This document shows, piece after piece, positions 53,388-63,919 of a stretch of 64,000 bases of DNA. The stretch comes from a bacterium (GTDB lineage Bacteria; Electryoneota; Electryoneia; Electryoneales; Electryoneaceae). Made by a program: the position numbers and the translations under genes. The stretch covers positions 62,001 to 126,000 of the forward strand of contig JAHLLH010000006.1 of NCBI GenBank assembly GCA_020444265.1. The letters run 5' to 3'. The notes beneath the pieces are model-generated. The model was given only the letters and a program-made list of their open reading frames with translations, was not told where the DNA came from and did no database searches. The stretch's first letter is position 1; every line of letters starts with the position of its first letter.

Positions 53388-54671
53388 CTAAACAGCCGCA
53401 CGCTGTACCAGGTATTCAAGGTAACGAGATTTCATCTGTTTCGAGGCAAGGGCACGTTTTACAGGAGATAATTTCAGGATTGCCCCGAACAAGGCAGCCA
53501 GTGCACGATGGCTTGTCAGAGTACGGTTGTCGAAGATGAGGTCCTGCAAATTCCCGCGTTCAATCGCCATCAGCACAACACGGTGCACCGAGTTGAGCGG
53601 GGTGATGACACGTTCCCCTCGCTCTTCCATGCGGATCGCGCCCGGCTTGCAAACCGGCTGGCAGATCCCGCAACCGAGGCAGACATCCTCGTTCAAACGG
53701 GCCAGTTTTTTTCTTGGTTTAGCCGGATCGTTCGCCGAAACCATGGTCATCGCTTCAACCGGGCAGACTTCCGCGCAACGGTTGCAGCCATTGCAGGTTT
53801 CCGCATCGACCACAGGAATGTAGTTGGTCGTGTGGACAGGATGTAGATGGCCGAATTTTCGTGCCGCGATCAAAGCCTCACAGCAGCAGCCGCAGCAGTT
53901 GCAGATAAAATTGACCCCTTCCCTGACATTTTCACCAAACTGCACCAGGTTGTTCTCGTGCGCCTTGGCAAGCAGGTCGAGGCATTCGGACGCTTCAATT
54001 TTACGGGTGACACCATGTTTATTCAGAGATTGAGCCGTGCTGTTGAAGGTCATGCAGATGTCCATCGGGGCATCGCAGGCACGTCCAAGGTGCTCCATCT
54101 TGTGACGGCAATAGCACATGCCGACACCGATCTCGCTTGCGCTGTGGATCACCCAGGAGGCCTTCTCGTAATCCAGCACTTCCAGACGTTGCTCGCTCGA
54201 GAGGGCTGGTTCATTGACAAAGGTCCGTCCCATCTGCGTTTCGCCACGGCAGACGAGGTCACGGATAAAGTCCTCTTCCACATTGATATACTGGTGAAAC
54301 AGTTCAGCGAGCAGCGCCTGATCGATGTCATCCCGAACACGCATCATCGAAAATTCGAAGAAGCCCGCCATCGGCGGCGGAAGCGTGTAAACCGACTCCC
54401 CCTCTCGGTTTTCAATGTCCACCAGGATGCCACGGCTTGCCAGGGTGTCAAGTGTCACCTGCGCATCGGCGGAGGTTGTTTTCCAACGTTTCGCGGCGGT
54501 ATCGGTGGTGAAGGGTTTGATCGGCAGGAGGGCAACCATCTCCGCTTCTCGTTCGGTAAACAGTAACCCTAGAATCTTGTAAAGTAGTTCCCCGGGAGGG
54601 GCACCCTGCGGAAAGTGATTGATCCGATCACTCAAGGACCTGTACGCAGTCCGTACCGTATGATGAGCCAT
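53388..54671 (-). CDS. Multi-cluster ferredoxin-type protein with N-terminal winged helix
   Basis: A 427-residue cytoplasmic protein. Residues about 1-130 are a winged-helix region (TAAKRWKTTSADAQVTLDTLASRGILVDI). Next come unusual Cys groups, GMCYCRHKMEHLGRACDAPMDICM and FICNCCGCCCEA. Then a dicluster 4Fe-4S ferredoxin domain has CNGCNRCAEVCPVEA and CLGCGICQPVCKPGA. Similar proteins occur in anaerobes and are annotated only as 4Fe-4S proteins; the role may be redox-linked regulation or electron transfer. The start at 54671 follows GGGGGAG closely; the frame continues upstream to 54740 without a ribosome-binding site. Confidence 0.8.
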   Translation of the reverse strand: MAHHTVRTAYRSLSDRINHFPQGAPPGELLYKILGLLFTEREAEMVALLPIKPFTTDTAAKRWKTTSADAQVTLDTLASRGILVDIENREGESVYTLPPPMAGFFEFSMMRVRDDIDQALLAELFHQYINVEEDFIRDLVCRGETQMGRTFVNEPALSSEQRLEVLDYEKASWVIHSASEIGVGMCYCRHKMEHLGRACDAPMDICMTFNSTAQSLNKHGVTRKIEASECLDLLAKAHENNLVQFGENVREGVNFICNCCGCCCEALIAARKFGHLHPVHTTNYIPVVDAETCNGCNRCAEVCPVEAMTMVSANDPAKPRKKLARLNEDVCLGCGICQPVCKPGAIRMEERGERVITPLNSVHRVVLMAIERGNLQDLIFDNRTLTSHRALAALFGAILKLSPVKRALASKQMKSRYLEYLVQRAAV

Positions 54672-55078
54672 ACTCCCCCCGTTCGTTCCACTTATCACAA
54701 TGTCTGCACTTGTGAGCCCTCGCGACAAGCTCGCCCCCACCTTTGCCTGGTTGGTAAGCTCTCCTAACTTTCAGCCTTATGCAAGAACGATTTCTTTATT
54801 TTGAAAATAAAAATATCCTTATTCTTTATAAAATAGATATATCATCAATTATTAATATGGTATGACTGAAAAACGCTCCATAATCTTCATTTCGTACTCT
54901 AATAATTATATTTAAGCGATTAGACAATTTTTGCGATTCACGCTAATATACCGAATATCGACTCTGTACCTGATATTTATTCTATCTTTGCACTCATTTT
55001 CACATGTATCTTACAGGTGATCAGGGGGATCAACCGTAAACCACTACTACACGAGTCCGTGAAAAGCGAGGTACAACA
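54672..55078. other. A+T-rich intergenic region
   Basis: About 400 bases between divergent genes without a gene. It is markedly A+T-rich from 54780 to 54960 and contains a perfect 17-base palindrome TTTATTTT-G-AAAATAAA at 54795-54811. Promoters for the Fe-S protein and the chemoreceptor are expected here but none is unambiguous. Confidence 0.5.
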
Positions 55079-57337
55079 ATGACTCTTTCACTATCAAGGA
55101 AGATTGCCCTGGTTGCATTTGCCACTCTCTTCATCACTCTAGGGACGATGATCTTCCTCATGCTTCAGGCGGAACAGAAGCGCGAGATGAGCACAGCGAT
55201 GGAGCAGGCGGAGAGCAACTCTCATATGGTTGTTCAGGCGCTGGTCTTTGCCATGCGTGAAGGAGTGACCGATGTCACCCCCTTCGAGGAAGAAGCTTCC
55301 AGCATTGGCCTGATTCGTGAACTTCGCGTCATCCCCATGGACATCATTGATCCAACCGCCGCTGCTACCCTTGATGAGTTTGAACGTGAAACCCTCGCTC
55401 ACGGCGAGGAAAAGAGCCGTATCGAAGAGTTCAAGGACAAATCGGTGCTCCGAATCTCGACACCGATCATCTCGGACCAGAGCTGTGTAGACTGCCATGG
55501 GGGAGCAGTCGGCGACGCAATCACCGTGGTCACTCTTCGTACTTCGCTGGAGGAAGCGCAGGCCTCGATTGCAGGGCAACGTTTCCGGGCGATCCTGATG
55601 GGATTCGGTACCCTGATCGTCACCATCATCATTCTCTACTTGCTGGTGAACGCGCGCATCGTCGGCGCCATCCGAAAGTGTGTCTCCTTTGCAGGCCGTC
55701 TCGCACAGGGCGATCTGCGCGAGGAACTGGTGATACACAGCAAGGACGAGACAGGTCAATTAGCCGATTCGTTCAATCAGCTGCGCGACAGCCTCCACGC
55801 GAAAGAAGTAGCTTCGCAACGTATAGCAGCCGGTGATTTGAGTGAGGATGCACCCATTGCTTCTGATCAGGATTCGTTGGGCCGCGCGATGCAGGGGATC
55901 ATGAACAGCCTGCGGACGATGCAAAGCGACCTCGCCCGGACGACAAACAAACTGGCCGAGGGGCAGTTGGATGCACGTTGCGAATGTGACGAGAGTAAAC
56001 TTGCCGGATCCTACGCTGATCTGATCAAGGGTGTCAACCAGGCCCTTGAAGCAGTCGTGCAACCGTTGATGACAGCTCTGAATTGCATTGGACAGTATGC
56101 GGACGGTGACCTGAGTAGTGAAATGCCAGAGCTACCCGGTCAGCAACAGATTATTACGGATGGTCTTAACAGGATCCGTGGCAACCTTCAAGACCTGGTG
56201 GATGAGGCACGGACACTATCCAATGCGGCAGAAGAGGGAAACCTTTCGGTTCGAGCAGACACAGGAAAACTGTCCGGCGCATTCCGTGATGTGATCGAAG
56301 GAATGAACCACACCATCGATAACTTGCTCGCGCCGATCCAGGAAGCAGCAAGAGTCCTCAAAAGAATGGAGACCGGTGACTTTACCGCGACTGTCCAAGG
56401 CGACTATCACGGCGACCATGCTGTCATCAAGGACGCAATCAATAATGTGCTGGGTCGTCTCAACCACCTCCTAACCAACATTTCGGAAGCGGTGGACCAG
56501 GTGAAGAACGGTTCCGAACAGGTCTCCACCTCGAGCCAGTCCCTTTCCGATGGGGCAACTCGTCAAGCCTCATCCCTCGAGGAGATCAGTTCCTCGATGC
56601 AGGAAGTCCAGCAGCGGGCGGAAACGAATGGTTCCAACGCGAATGAAGCACGCAAGCTGTCGGATGGTGTTCGCAGCAGCGCAGAGGAAGGCAATGAGCG
56701 CATGGCGAAAATGCTGGACGCGATGGAAGGGATTAATAATGCGGCCGGTGAGATTTCGCAGATCATCAAGACGATCGACGAGATCGCTTTCCAGACCAAC
56801 CTGTTGGCGTTAAATGCGGCAGTTGAAGCGGCACGTGCCGGGGCGCACGGCAAGGGCTTCGCAGTTGTCGCCGAGGAGGTGCGTAACCTCGCGCAACGCA
56901 GTGCGAAAGCCGCATCCGAAACCACCCAATTGATCGAGCAATCGATTGAGCGATCCCGCAACGGCAGCAGGATTGCGACCGACACCGCGGACAGCCTGGG
57001 CACCATTATTACGGGTGTCGGTAAGGTGAGCGGGGTCATTGGCGAGATCGCAGAAGCGGTCTCCCACCAGAGTGTGAGCATCAAGGGAATCAATGACGGC
57101 TTAACCGACATCGATCAGGTCACCCAGGGCAACAGCGCTATCGCCGAAGAGACCGCCGCCTCCTCCGAGGAACTGGCAGGTCAGACCGCGACCCTTTCCT
57201 CCATGTTGCAAGAGTTCACGCTTACCAGAAGTGGCGGATCCCGTGTGTTGACGGGTACCACCCGTGGCGGGATGAAGCAGCTAGGTGGAGTGGCAAGCGA
57301 AGATGATCTTGCATTCGATGACTTTGATTCCTTCTAG
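55079..57337 (+). CDS. Methyl-accepting chemotaxis protein with haem-binding periplasmic domain
   Basis: A 752-residue receptor. Helix 1 is at about 8-28. The periplasmic domain resembles DUF3365/Tll0287 and holds a c-type haem site CVDCH (Cys136, Cys139, His140), so redox or gas sensing is likely. Helix 2 lies at about 162-192. Two or more HAMP/linker repeats follow (about 190-450). The signalling domain has the conserved tip [47 protein letters not shown] at about 555-605. GAGG is 7 bases before the ATG. No other che gene is in the window. It ends with an acidic aromatic tail. Confidence 0.92.
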
Positions 57338-57429: not shown

Positions 57430-57723
57430 TCAGTGACGAGGATCGATAATGTTGCCTTCCTTGAAGAGGAATTCACGCAGCTCGTCATTGAGGGTTGCAT
57501 CCTTGCGTCGCAGCCACTCCAACAGCATCGCGGTGTGCTCGAGCTTCTCCTCCTTGTTGTGCTGGAGAAGCATCTTCAGCGACTCATCGGTGCAAAGGTC
57601 AATCTGCTGCGAGTAACGATCCACCGCCTCGAGGGTAATGGTCAGGGAAACTAGCGCACGGTGCAGGTCCCGTGTCTCCTGGCTCAATTCTCCCGACGGC
57701 TCATGATAGGCATGCTCAGCCAT
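57430..57723 (-). CDS. Encapsulated-ferritin-like protein without encapsulin
   Basis: A 97-residue two-helix protein of the EncFtn type, which forms ring-shaped decamers that oxidise iron. The pattern HEPSGELSQETRDLHRALVSL, TLEAVDRYSQQ with Glu32, and HNKEEKLEHTAMLLEWLRRKD with Glu62/His63 matches the family. The C terminus, EGNIIDPRH, lacks the usual localisation peptide that loads the protein into a shell, and no encapsulin gene is adjacent. By eye, Lys60 occupies the place of the first metal-binding Glu of the ExxH helix, with Glu59 one position earlier. It sits after sodC on the same strand. Confidence 0.75.
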   Translation of the reverse strand: MAEHAYHEPSGELSQETRDLHRALVSLTITLEAVDRYSQQIDLCTDESLKMLLQHNKEEKLEHTAMLLEWLRRKDATLNDELREFLFKEGNIIDPRH

Positions 57724-57957: not shown

Positions 57958-58581
57958 CTACTCCGCGACACCGATAACACCCACCGCGACACGTGCACCA
58001 GCAGCGCCGGTTGGTTGGCTTTTCAGGTCATCTTCACCCGCATGCACCACCACTCCTCGTCCGATGAACGATGTAGGCCCGTGGAACTTCAGGTCAGGAT
58101 CGGTCCACTCGTAGGTAGCGACCCCCTCGTCATCGGCGACAAGATTGCCAAGGTCACCCGCGTGACGCATCTCCGTCATCGGGCCGGCGTGGTCTGCCTT
58201 CATGGGATTGAAGTGCCCACCTGCAGAGGTCCCGTCCGGCGCGGTCGCGTCCCCAAACTGGTGGATGTGGAAGCCGTGCTTGCCGGGGGTCAGCCCCTCG
58301 ACCTTTGCGGTCACCTGCACACCCTCATCCGTCTGCTTGAACCAGACCGTACCATGGACCTTATTCCCCTCGGTTGGATGCAGGACAGACACCGCGGCTG
58401 TTATCGGCGAATGCATTTTACCGTGCTTCTTGCCGTGCATCTTTCCATGTTTCTTGCACTGGCCGTCGCACTCGTGTTTGGTCATGGTCGAGTCTTGCTT
58501 GCCGTGCATCATACCCTGTGCATTCGCAGCGAAGGGCAGTGCGAGCAACATCAGGGTCATTCCAATAGCGGTCTTCTTCAT
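57958..58581 (-). CDS. sodC: Periplasmic Cu/Zn superoxide dismutase lacking the disulfide cysteines
   Basis: Dismutates superoxide outside the cytoplasm. The 207-residue precursor has a signal peptide (MLLALPFAANA), then a His/Met/Cys-rich segment (HECDGQCKKHGKMHGKKHGKMH) likely to bind copper or zinc. The catalytic domain has Cu ligands FHIH (105, 107), the bridging His in GGHFNP (123), His131, His140, Asp143 and His180 in VVVHAGEDDL. The conserved structural disulfide is missing: the positions are Ala112 (GDAT) and Val200 (RVAVGVIG). A hairpin pair follows the stop. Confidence 0.93.
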   Translation of the reverse strand: MKKTAIGMTLMLLALPFAANAQGMMHGKQDSTMTKHECDGQCKKHGKMHGKKHGKMHSPITAAVSVLHPTEGNKVHGTVWFKQTDEGVQVTAKVEGLTPGKHGFHIHQFGDATAPDGTSAGGHFNPMKADHAGPMTEMRHAGDLGNLVADDEGVATYEWTDPDLKFHGPTSFIGRGVVVHAGEDDLKSQPTGAAGARVAVGVIGVAE

Positions 58582-61561: not shown

Positions 61562-61583
61562 TAGGGATTATCCAGGAGAAACC

Positions 61584-62807
61584 ATGAATTTTTACGGCTG
61601 GCTGATCGACAAGAAAATCATTGGTCTAAACGTTACAGTAAGTATGTCAATAGGAGAGTATTTAGACCTTGCTTCTGAAATAACAAAGCTCAATGTTTTC
61701 CAGCGTCGCAAAGTTAGAGCTCATGACCGAGTATACGAACTTTTAAGGAAAGACCTTCTTCAGGGGTGTGTAATTCCACCTATCACACTAGCAGTATCCG
61801 ATAAAATGAGTGACGAATGCCCTATCAATATTAATAGAATTGTTGAACGTGGATCCCTCCTTGAAGAAGAGGAGCGCGGCCTAAATGACTATGTGGAAGA
61901 AGCGTTTAGACGATATCAACTTATTATCCTGGACGGGCTTCAAAGAACCTTTACCCTTCAACAATGCCTTACAACGGCACAAGAAAATGATACTGAAGCA
62001 GAGTTCTCAGATTTCACAATTCGTACGGAAATTTATCTTGGTCTTTCCAAATCTGGCATACTCTATAGGATGCTTACGCTCAATACTGGGCAAACACCTA
62101 TGTCTTTCAGGCATCAAATAGAAATATTGTTCCATGACTTTTTGGAAGATGGTGCGCTGGCAGAGGACATTAGACTTGTAAAAGAGGTTGACGCTGCTCA
62201 TGCAAGGGGGCTTGGTGTATATAAATATAGTGACACCATTGATATGTATCACGCTTTTACTATTGGGTCTCCTAAAGCCATAGATAGATCTGCTTTGGTT
62301 GATAAATTAAAAGAAATGGAATTCCTTGAATCATATAGAACAGACCAGGCTAGTTATCAGCAGCTTGTTGTTTTGTATAACTCACTTATTCATCGTCTTG
62401 ATAATCTTTCATGCGATTGGTCTTTTGATAAGGAACGGGCGGCATCTGAAATCGAAAGGCCCTTTGGGACTAATATAGACTCTTTGTTTAGCAAATCACA
62501 GCCTATGACCGCCTTTGGAGCTGAACTAAACAGGTTAATTAAGCTTGGTAAAATCGAAGATGTTTCATCGATTAGTAGTATGATTGATAATCTTCGTTTT
62601 ACAATTAATCCCACTACATCACTGGATCAGCTTGTAGTGATATTGGACGAAATTGCGAGGCCTGCAAAGAGAATTGGTGACGCACAGAGAGAGTATTTTC
62701 GACTTGGTTTTAGAACCTTATTTAACGATGATTTCGATTCTTACCTTGACTTGTCAGAAGCATGGCTTAAGGCTCAGGATATGTATAACTCCATGTTCCT
62801 ATCATGA
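61584..62807 (+). CDS. DGQHR/DndB-like protein of the A+T-rich island
   Basis: A 407-residue cytoplasmic protein; codon use and A+T content differ sharply from the flanking genes. I chose ATG 61584 because AGGAGA lies 5 bases upstream; the frame is open back to 61461. The N-terminal part (about 25-75) has QRRKVRAHDRVYELL ... CVIPPITLAV, and LIILDGLQRTFTL (Asp117-Gly-Leu-Gln-Arg-Thr) is a variant of the DGQHR motif of DndB/ParB-like defence proteins, in which Leu-Gln replaces Gln-His. MLTLNTGQTPMSFRHQIEILF matches the LNTTQ segment seen after DGQHR. It overlaps the next gene by 4 bases (ATGA). Likely acts on nucleic acid; mechanism unknown. Confidence 0.7.
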   Translation: MNFYGWLIDKKIIGLNVTVSMSIGEYLDLASEITKLNVFQRRKVRAHDRVYELLRKDLLQGCVIPPITLAVSDKMSDECPININRIVERGSLLEEEERGLNDYVEEAFRRYQLIILDGLQRTFTLQQCLTTAQENDTEAEFSDFTIRTEIYLGLSKSGILYRMLTLNTGQTPMSFRHQIEILFHDFLEDGALAEDIRLVKEVDAAHARGLGVYKYSDTIDMYHAFTIGSPKAIDRSALVDKLKEMEFLESYRTDQASYQQLVVLYNSLIHRLDNLSCDWSFDKERAASEIERPFGTNIDSLFSKSQPMTAFGAELNRLIKLGKIEDVSSISSMIDNLRFTINPTTSLDQLVVILDEIARPAKRIGDAQREYFRLGFRTLFNDDFDSYLDLSEAWLKAQDMYNSMFLS

Positions 62808-63919
62808 CATGTGATGTGAAACGACTCGTCAATTCATTTGAACCTACTAGTGATGTTGATGTTTCTGACGTTGGATATGAAGATGGCACTCTAGTAATAT
62901 CTACCAGTGCGGGCAATATCCTCGTCAAATGCATCGATCCCGATTTACACTCCGTTACTATTAACGACTACATCGCAGTCCTTGTGTCGAGCCCTCATGC
63001 TGGACAGCAGGAATATTGCCCTATTCGGACAGCACCACCCTTGACGAATACACTGGGGATGCTCTTCCCATTGACCTCACTGGATGACGGGAGTGAGATC
63101 TTTTCTAGCGACCATGAAGAAAAATATGCGGTTGCCGCGCTCTTATCGATTCTCGAGAATCGTTTTACTGCAAACAGTATTACACCAAAACGCGAAGAAG
63201 TTCTCACCGACCGAACCTACTATTTATCTGAGCTATTTTCTGAAGGCACATCTATAGCAATACTACATAATCCTACTTTAGCATCTCATCATTACGACCT
63301 GAAAGATGTACTTATTAATCTATTATGCCATAATATTACAATCCCTCCAGATATACTTCCTAGACAAACACACCCAACTGCTCCAGACAAGTATAAGATA
63401 AAAACTATATCCAGCGAGCTGCTTGACGACAAAGAAGTAATTTATCATATGCTTATAAAATACCAGAACGAGACCGATCCATACCTTAAATTTGTTATAT
63501 TATATCAAATTATAGAATTATTACTTGATAAAATTTACAAACACGTCATATCACTTCTTAAAGACGAATTAATAAACAATCAAAATATTTTAATAGTTAA
63601 AGAGATAATTCAAAATATCAGCAGAGAAAGATGGAGGCTTCAAATATTAGAGAATAAATTAGTAGCCGGCTGCAATCGAGATATAATGAGAGATTCTAAG
63701 GATAAATTAAATGATTTTCTTGTTGCTTGTGGAGAAGAAGGCTATCAAGACTGGAATAAAAGCTTATACAAAGCAAGAAATTTGATAACACATAGATTAT
63801 TCGAGAACTTTAATATTACCGGAATTGATTTTAGCGATACCGTTGAGTATCTAAGTAAGGCACTTCTTGAAGTAATTAGCAATTTTTCCACTAGAAATTA
63901 CACTACTTTTGAAAACTAG
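62804..63919 (+). CDS. HEPN-like protein partnered with the DGQHR protein
   Basis: A 371-residue soluble protein of unknown family, A+T-rich. Residues 1-200 are mixed alpha/beta with no match. The C-terminal 160 residues are helical: DPYLKFVILYQIIELLLDKIYKHV, then WNKSLYKARNLITHRLFENF with Arg325-NLIT-His330 (RX4H), the signature of HEPN ribonuclease or nucleotide-binding domains (ApeA-like order: helix bundle, then RX4H near the end). Translation is coupled to the DGQHR gene (ATGA). A toxin or effector role in defence is likely, the DGQHR protein being its sensor or control. Not recognised as any named system. Confidence 0.65.
   Translation: MTCDVKRLVNSFEPTSDVDVSDVGYEDGTLVISTSAGNILVKCIDPDLHSVTINDYIAVLVSSPHAGQQEYCPIRTAPPLTNTLGMLFPLTSLDDGSEIFSSDHEEKYAVAALLSILENRFTANSITPKREEVLTDRTYYLSELFSEGTSIAILHNPTLASHHYDLKDVLINLLCHNITIPPDILPRQTHPTAPDKYKIKTISSELLDDKEVIYHMLIKYQNETDPYLKFVILYQIIELLLDKIYKHVISLLKDELINNQNILIVKEIIQNISRERWRLQILENKLVAGCNRDIMRDSKDKLNDFLVACGEEGYQDWNKSLYKARNLITHRLFENFNITGIDFSDTVEYLSKALLEVISNFSTRNYTTFEN

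Follow-up and report, generated by a model that had tools for sequence, protein, structure and literature searches.

A divergent Dazbog gene pair from an Electryoneota genome, encoding a predicted ParB-like protein and a predicted HEPN-type partner

Close to the right-hand end of the 64,000-nucleotide stretch of DNA analysed here (the window) lie two overlapping genes that, judged from the sequences of their products, are a divergent copy of Dazbog, a known two-gene anti-phage system. The first protein matches the PADLOC model PDLC03835 (DzbA) at 1.5e-117 with 391 bits, over positions 2-392 of a profile of 393; the second matches PDLC03836 (DzbB) at 1.8e-38 with 131 bits, over positions 20-338 of 341. 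From the PADLOC names we take DzbA and DzbB to be the products of the two genes of Dazbog. The gene order is that of the known system, dzbB coming directly after dzbA in the same orientation. We consider it reasonably probable that the locus as a whole is a horizontally acquired Dazbog system, in which DzbA would sense modified DNA and activate a HEPN RNase, DzbB. An earlier, sequence-only reading of this DNA had proposed a compact two-protein defence module of an undescribed kind. Both proteins being members of the Dazbog family bears out the module, and their nearly full-length matches to the PADLOC models remove the claim that it is undescribed. The locus is one more copy of a known system, in a small and sparsely sampled phylum. 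Reviews credit the discovery of Dazbog to Millman et al. 2022 (PMC10952713; PMC12926258).

The pair shares with Dazbog, as modelled in PADLOC, both proteins, the gene order and the two-gene operon. It differs from it in two respects: the DzbA of the window belongs to a distinct and fully supported subclade of 12 rows (100/100, stem 0.91), together with sequences from Falkowbacteria, Chloroflexota and Pseudomonadota, and its DzbB is only about 17-23% identical to the DzbB proteins of the nearest DzbA relatives. The nearest DzbA homologues come from Falkowbacteria and Pseudomonadota. Two homologous pairs on plasmids match both PADLOC models well, and other pairs match them more weakly. At plasmid locus L008, the protein that takes the place of DzbB has no PADLOC match, yet keeps the invariant arginine and histidine described below. 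Other collections were less informative: NCBIfam profiles did not match the pair, a search of PDB sequences with the DzbA and DzbB alignments returned nothing, and in PHROGs DzbA matched one unnamed family only (phrog_27603, 1.9e-19) and DzbB none.

Two intact open reading frames, dzbA (61584..62807, forward strand, 407 amino acids) and dzbB (62804..63919, forward strand, 371 amino acids), are joined by an ATGA at 62804..62807 (forward), where the dzbB start overlaps the dzbA stop; this coupled arrangement had been described correctly. An SD-like AGGAGA lies at 61574..61579 (forward). Because it precedes the ATG at 61584, and because many homologues align from that methionine as residue 1, we prefer this start; a longer, mechanically called frame beginning at GTG 61461 is unnecessary. 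Scans of the locus for promoters and terminators gave no more signals than shuffled sequence. The pair is strikingly rich in A+T, as had been noticed: G+C is 39.4% in dzbA, 36.3% in dzbB and 37.9% in the pair, against 54.4% in the window, which places the pair 5.7 standard deviations below the window mean. No other stretch of the same length (2.3 kb) in the window has so low a G+C. A second, shorter stretch of low G+C (39-42%) is found at 54500-55250; it is mostly intergenic and lies before a methyl-accepting chemotaxis-type gene at 55079. The flanking genes are those named by the sequence-only reading. On the left is a small cupin-like gene with a weak match to Cupin_2 (0.00063). On the right, a true alanine racemase gene (6e-51) is convergent with dzbB; its 3' end lies about 8 bp past the dzbB stop, and the gene extends beyond the window. 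Elsewhere in the window, an EncFtn-like (encapsulated ferritin-like) protein is encoded at 57430-57723 on the reverse strand (3.7e-31), adjoining a Cu/Zn superoxide dismutase gene at 57958-58581.

The best Pfam family for the window DzbA is GmrSD_N (DUF262), with a value of 0.0012 that lies below the Pfam cut-off. GmrSD_N is matched by 42 of 52 DzbA homologues at E-values up to 0.01, compared with a single homologue for DndB, and the window protein itself does not match the DndB profile at E-values up to 1. Two short motifs, DGLQR (Asp117 to Arg121, encoded at 61932..61946, forward) and LNTGQ (Leu166 to Gln170, 62079..62093, forward), had been pointed out before; both are present and invariant in the 52 aligned DzbA rows. 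In DUF262 proteins a DGQQR motif forms the nucleotide pocket (PMC10952713), and residues Asp117 to Arg121 of DzbA correspond to it. The same two motifs resemble those of DndB/DGQHR proteins, and one DzbA homologue reaches the DndB profile at 0.0011, as might be expected if the locus were an undescribed system of the DGQHR/DndB type. Against this reading, which we regard as very improbable, stand the Dazbog models, which both proteins match over nearly their whole length, and the better fit of GmrSD_N across the homologues. The likeness of DzbA to DndB/DGQHR proteins is one of motifs, at the level of the superfamily, and theirs is not its best-matching family; DzbA is nearer to the DUF262/GmrSD-N proteins (SspE, BrxU, DndI) than to DndB.

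The predicted structure of DzbA points the same way. AlphaFold2 modelled DzbA with confidence (pLDDT 88.9), as a ParB-like N-terminal domain (residues ~1-171) and a helical C-terminal part (~174-407). The N-terminal half, predicted to have a ParB-like nucleotide-binding fold as the sequence-only reading anticipated, can be superimposed onto PadC and ParB with Z-scores of 7.1 and deviations of 2.8-3.0 Å for 97-98 residues. The model also matches SspE (Z 6.3, 3.5 Å, 122 residues), BrxU (Z 5.2 over 271 residues, a loose superposition at 13 Å) and DndI (Z 4.0). A Foldseek search with the DzbA model gave no E-value below 0.001, and SspE, PadC and BrxU appeared within its first eight rows. Like GmrSD, BrxU, SspE and DndI, DzbA has a predicted NTP-binding sensor domain of the DUF262-like kind, in which a DGxxR motif is present, and its predicted structure is similar to theirs. 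These modification-dependent enzymes combine DUF262 with DUF1524, whereas in the Dazbog pair the putative effector is a separate HEPN-type protein; the DUF1524 HNH-type nuclease domain was not found by Pfam in either DzbA or DzbB. The models thus support DzbA as a predicted ParB-like nucleotide-binding domain related to the sensors of type IV restriction enzymes, lacking their nuclease domain. Of what had been said of the first protein, a DNA-sensing type in the ParB superfamily agrees with the predicted fold, the assignment to DndB gives way to DUF262/GmrSD_N, and a role in marking DNA is unsupported, as no modification domain was found.

The model of DzbB is likewise confident (pLDDT 86.3), with an α/β N-terminal domain (residues ~1-200) and a helical, HEPN-type C-terminal domain (~203-362). 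Within one helix of the latter lies the RX4H motif that had also been pointed out before, Arg325-Asn-Leu-Ile-Thr-His330 (63776..63793, forward). Arg325 and His330, together with Tyr234 and Glu238, are the only invariant residues in 61 DzbB rows, whose homologues are just 14-23% identical to the window protein. The residue after the arginine is Asn, Cys or Ser (Asn in 52 of the 61), and R[NCS]xxxH occurs within 95 residues of the C-terminus in 98 of 102 partner proteins but in 1.0% of shuffled sequences. Given this shuffling result and the invariance of the motifs in the 52 DzbA and 61 DzbB rows, the motifs are not due to chance. HEPN domains are characterised by an RX4-6H motif in which the arginine is usually followed by a polar residue (PMC3710099), and DzbB has just such a family-conserved motif, RX4H with a polar residue next to the arginine.

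Profile comparisons add to this evidence. Pfam does not match the window DzbB itself, but HEPN_Apea is matched by six of 61 homologues (best 2.6e-4) and HepT-like by three (best 2.8e-4), and in some of them these are the best match. The C-terminal domain of DzbB was also compared, as a profile, with a mixed set in which sequences from DzbA and from the N-terminus of DzbB served as decoys; the first 19 ranks were all HEPN domains of ApeA or HepT, above the decoys. In hhalign the domain reached 54% probability with ApeA and 20% with HepT, with the arginine and histidine paired correctly; the controls gave less than 2% and at most 7%, respectively. ApeA, RnlA and HepT, which are HEPN RNases of defence or toxin systems, have in common with DzbB the RX4H motif and a predicted HEPN-like helical domain, and differ from it in the N-terminal domain and the partner protein; the sequence likeness is remote.

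Structural comparison placed MtlR (3brj: Z 5.2, 4.8 Å, 121 residues; 3c8g: Z 5.1, 5.5 Å, 124 residues) and RnlA (4i8o: Z 4.4, 3.6 Å, 100 residues) at ranks 2-4, behind an unrelated kinase at rank 1. Z-scores of 4.4-5.2 are common for helical domains and do not decide the fold by themselves. MtlR and RnlA are members of the HEPN superfamily (PMC3710099). Foldseek with the DzbB model gave no E-value below 0.001. The weakness of the structural match leaves some room for a DzbB that acts on DNA or binds nucleic acid without catalysis, its helical RX4H domain not being an active RNase, and some HEPN families, MtlR among them, are largely inactive (PMC3710099). We think this rather unlikely, since an arginine and a histidine that never vary in 61 such divergent sequences are hard to explain without catalysis. 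The invariant residues, the fold ranking and the ApeA/HepT profile ranking together give good support to the earlier suggestion of a HEPN RNase-type protein. We conclude that the C-terminal domain of DzbB is very probably a HEPN domain; the models support an intact RX4H site in it, and RNase activity is its likely predicted function.

The pair is widespread. A scan of genome contigs with the single DzbA sequence matched nothing, and homologues were retrieved through an alignment. One degenerate pattern found at least 250 further DzbA relatives, in bacteria and archaea, in a collection of genomes from 84,980 species; two patterns found 41 relatives in viral contigs. Homologues are found on plasmids as well as on viral contigs; a search of the INPHARED phage records for DzbA relatives at 1e-5 found none. 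A partner gene lies directly downstream in 102 of 106 homologous loci, overlapping or within 20 bp in 100 of these, and three of the four remaining loci run to the end of the sequence. The same pair is therefore present in other genomes, a point the sequence-only reading had left to be checked, and in many phyla the two genes, their arrangement as an operon and the motifs that they encode have been conserved.

In its own phylum the pair is a rarity. The window genome is the sole carrier among 39 genomes of the phylum, and the other 146 of 147 genomes of relatives lack dzbA. The patchy occurrence, the low G+C and the DzbA tree together indicate that the Dazbog pair was horizontally acquired. 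The sequence-only reading had named one finding that would count against a defence module, namely that the two are ordinary core genes which stay with these flanking genes. Nothing was found in favour of this: the pair is missing from all other genomes of the family and phylum searched, and the genomes of the same family share no gene order around the flanking genes, which sit in different surroundings there. The outlying G+C (z = -5.7) and the occurrence of homologues on plasmids and viral contigs also speak against an ordinary host pair, to which we give almost no credence.

How Dazbog works is still given as unknown in reviews (PMC12926258; PMC12409349). They do report that phage methylases activate Dazbog by an unclear mechanism (PMC12409349), and name methylated DNA as what its DUF262 protein probably recognises (PMC10952713). 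On the strength of the reported activation by phage methylases (PMC12409349), we favour DNA sensing as the trigger. DzbA would bind phage DNA carrying a modification, probably methylation, and the switch would be nucleotide binding or hydrolysis by DzbA. Where GmrSD, BrxU and SspE use a DUF1524 nuclease, DzbA would then release or activate a separate HEPN RNase, DzbB, which would cut host or phage RNA, and the infected cell would cease to produce phage, aborting the infection. That a DUF262 NTPase without a DNA nuclease commands a HEPN RNase in this manner, with the methylation by which phage escape restriction triggering RNA cutting and abortive infection, is a tentative proposal, to which we give slightly less than an even chance.

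The two proteins evolve at different rates: across 49 loci, DzbB pairs are ~20% identical where the DzbA pairs have 35-40%, and both halves of DzbB diverge much faster than DzbA. Toxin effectors often change quickly, and phage inhibitors might, as a matter of speculation, be what drives DzbB to do so. The faster divergence of DzbB also suits a different, toxin-antitoxin-like arrangement, in which DzbA mainly inhibits a putative HEPN toxin, DzbB, and phage infection frees the toxin by disturbing DzbA, modified DNA not being recognised specifically. The genes are coupled as tightly as in toxin-antitoxin operons, and a toxin, RnlA, is among the closest HEPN structures. DzbA, however, resembles a DUF262 sensor in size and domain rather than a small antitoxin, its NTP-pocket motif is invariant, and the link to phage methylases drawn in reviews fits DNA sensing. 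We regard the toxin-antitoxin-like arrangement as unlikely.

The combination of DUF262-type and HEPN proteins is not without precedent, since a survey in 2013 already described HEPN domains that are fused to ParB-type proteins, DUF262 among them, or share an operon with such proteins (PMC3710099). According to a review (PMC10952713), PD-T4-2 also has DUF262 and HEPN domains; the likeness is by description only, and no PADLOC model of PD-T4-2 matched DzbA or DzbB at E-values up to 1. The same review does not include Dazbog among the HEPN systems in its table (PMC10952713), and we did not find the HEPN nature of DzbB in the literature searched, which did not extend to the primary Dazbog papers. 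A HEPN-type RNA-cutting toxin, for which DzbB is a strongly supported candidate, would explain how Dazbog acts. If the sensing mechanism with DzbA is true, Dazbog joins the sensing of DNA modification to an RNA-cutting effector, and provides a second line of defence against phage that methylate their own DNA to escape restriction. The useful part is that this mechanism is testable, with Arg325 and His330 of DzbB and Asp117 and Arg121 of DzbA as precise residues to mutate.

Ten neighbouring open reading frames were scanned (~10 kb to the right and 4 kb to the left); none of them is a Dnd gene, in agreement with the sequence-only reading, and those on the left include no other defence gene. Just one further defence gene was found in the vicinity, encoding an MmeI-like type IIG restriction-methyltransferase. 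It lies outside the window, just beyond the alanine racemase gene (L003:1558-5070; about 127457-130969 of contig G000:C4), and its larger part scores 1309 bits in PADLOC. A single in-frame stop after residue 144 splits the gene, which is either a pseudogene or the product of a sequence error. In other genomes the immediate neighbours of Dazbog include type IV restriction enzymes, type I and II restriction-modification genes, AbiO, Nhi and MzaE, and several plasmid copies adjoin methyltransferase or restriction genes. No constant third gene or restriction-modification partner emerged: the 135 genes immediately next to the pair in 80 genome loci belong to families with three members at most. The Pseudomonas plasmid record NZ_CP032615.1, which has a Dazbog pair at L005:5037-7411, also carries an integrase gene and filamentous-phage-type genes for a major capsid protein, a zonular occludens toxin-domain protein and a TspB-like protein. 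This record may be an extrachromosomal filamentous prophage that carries a Dazbog pair.
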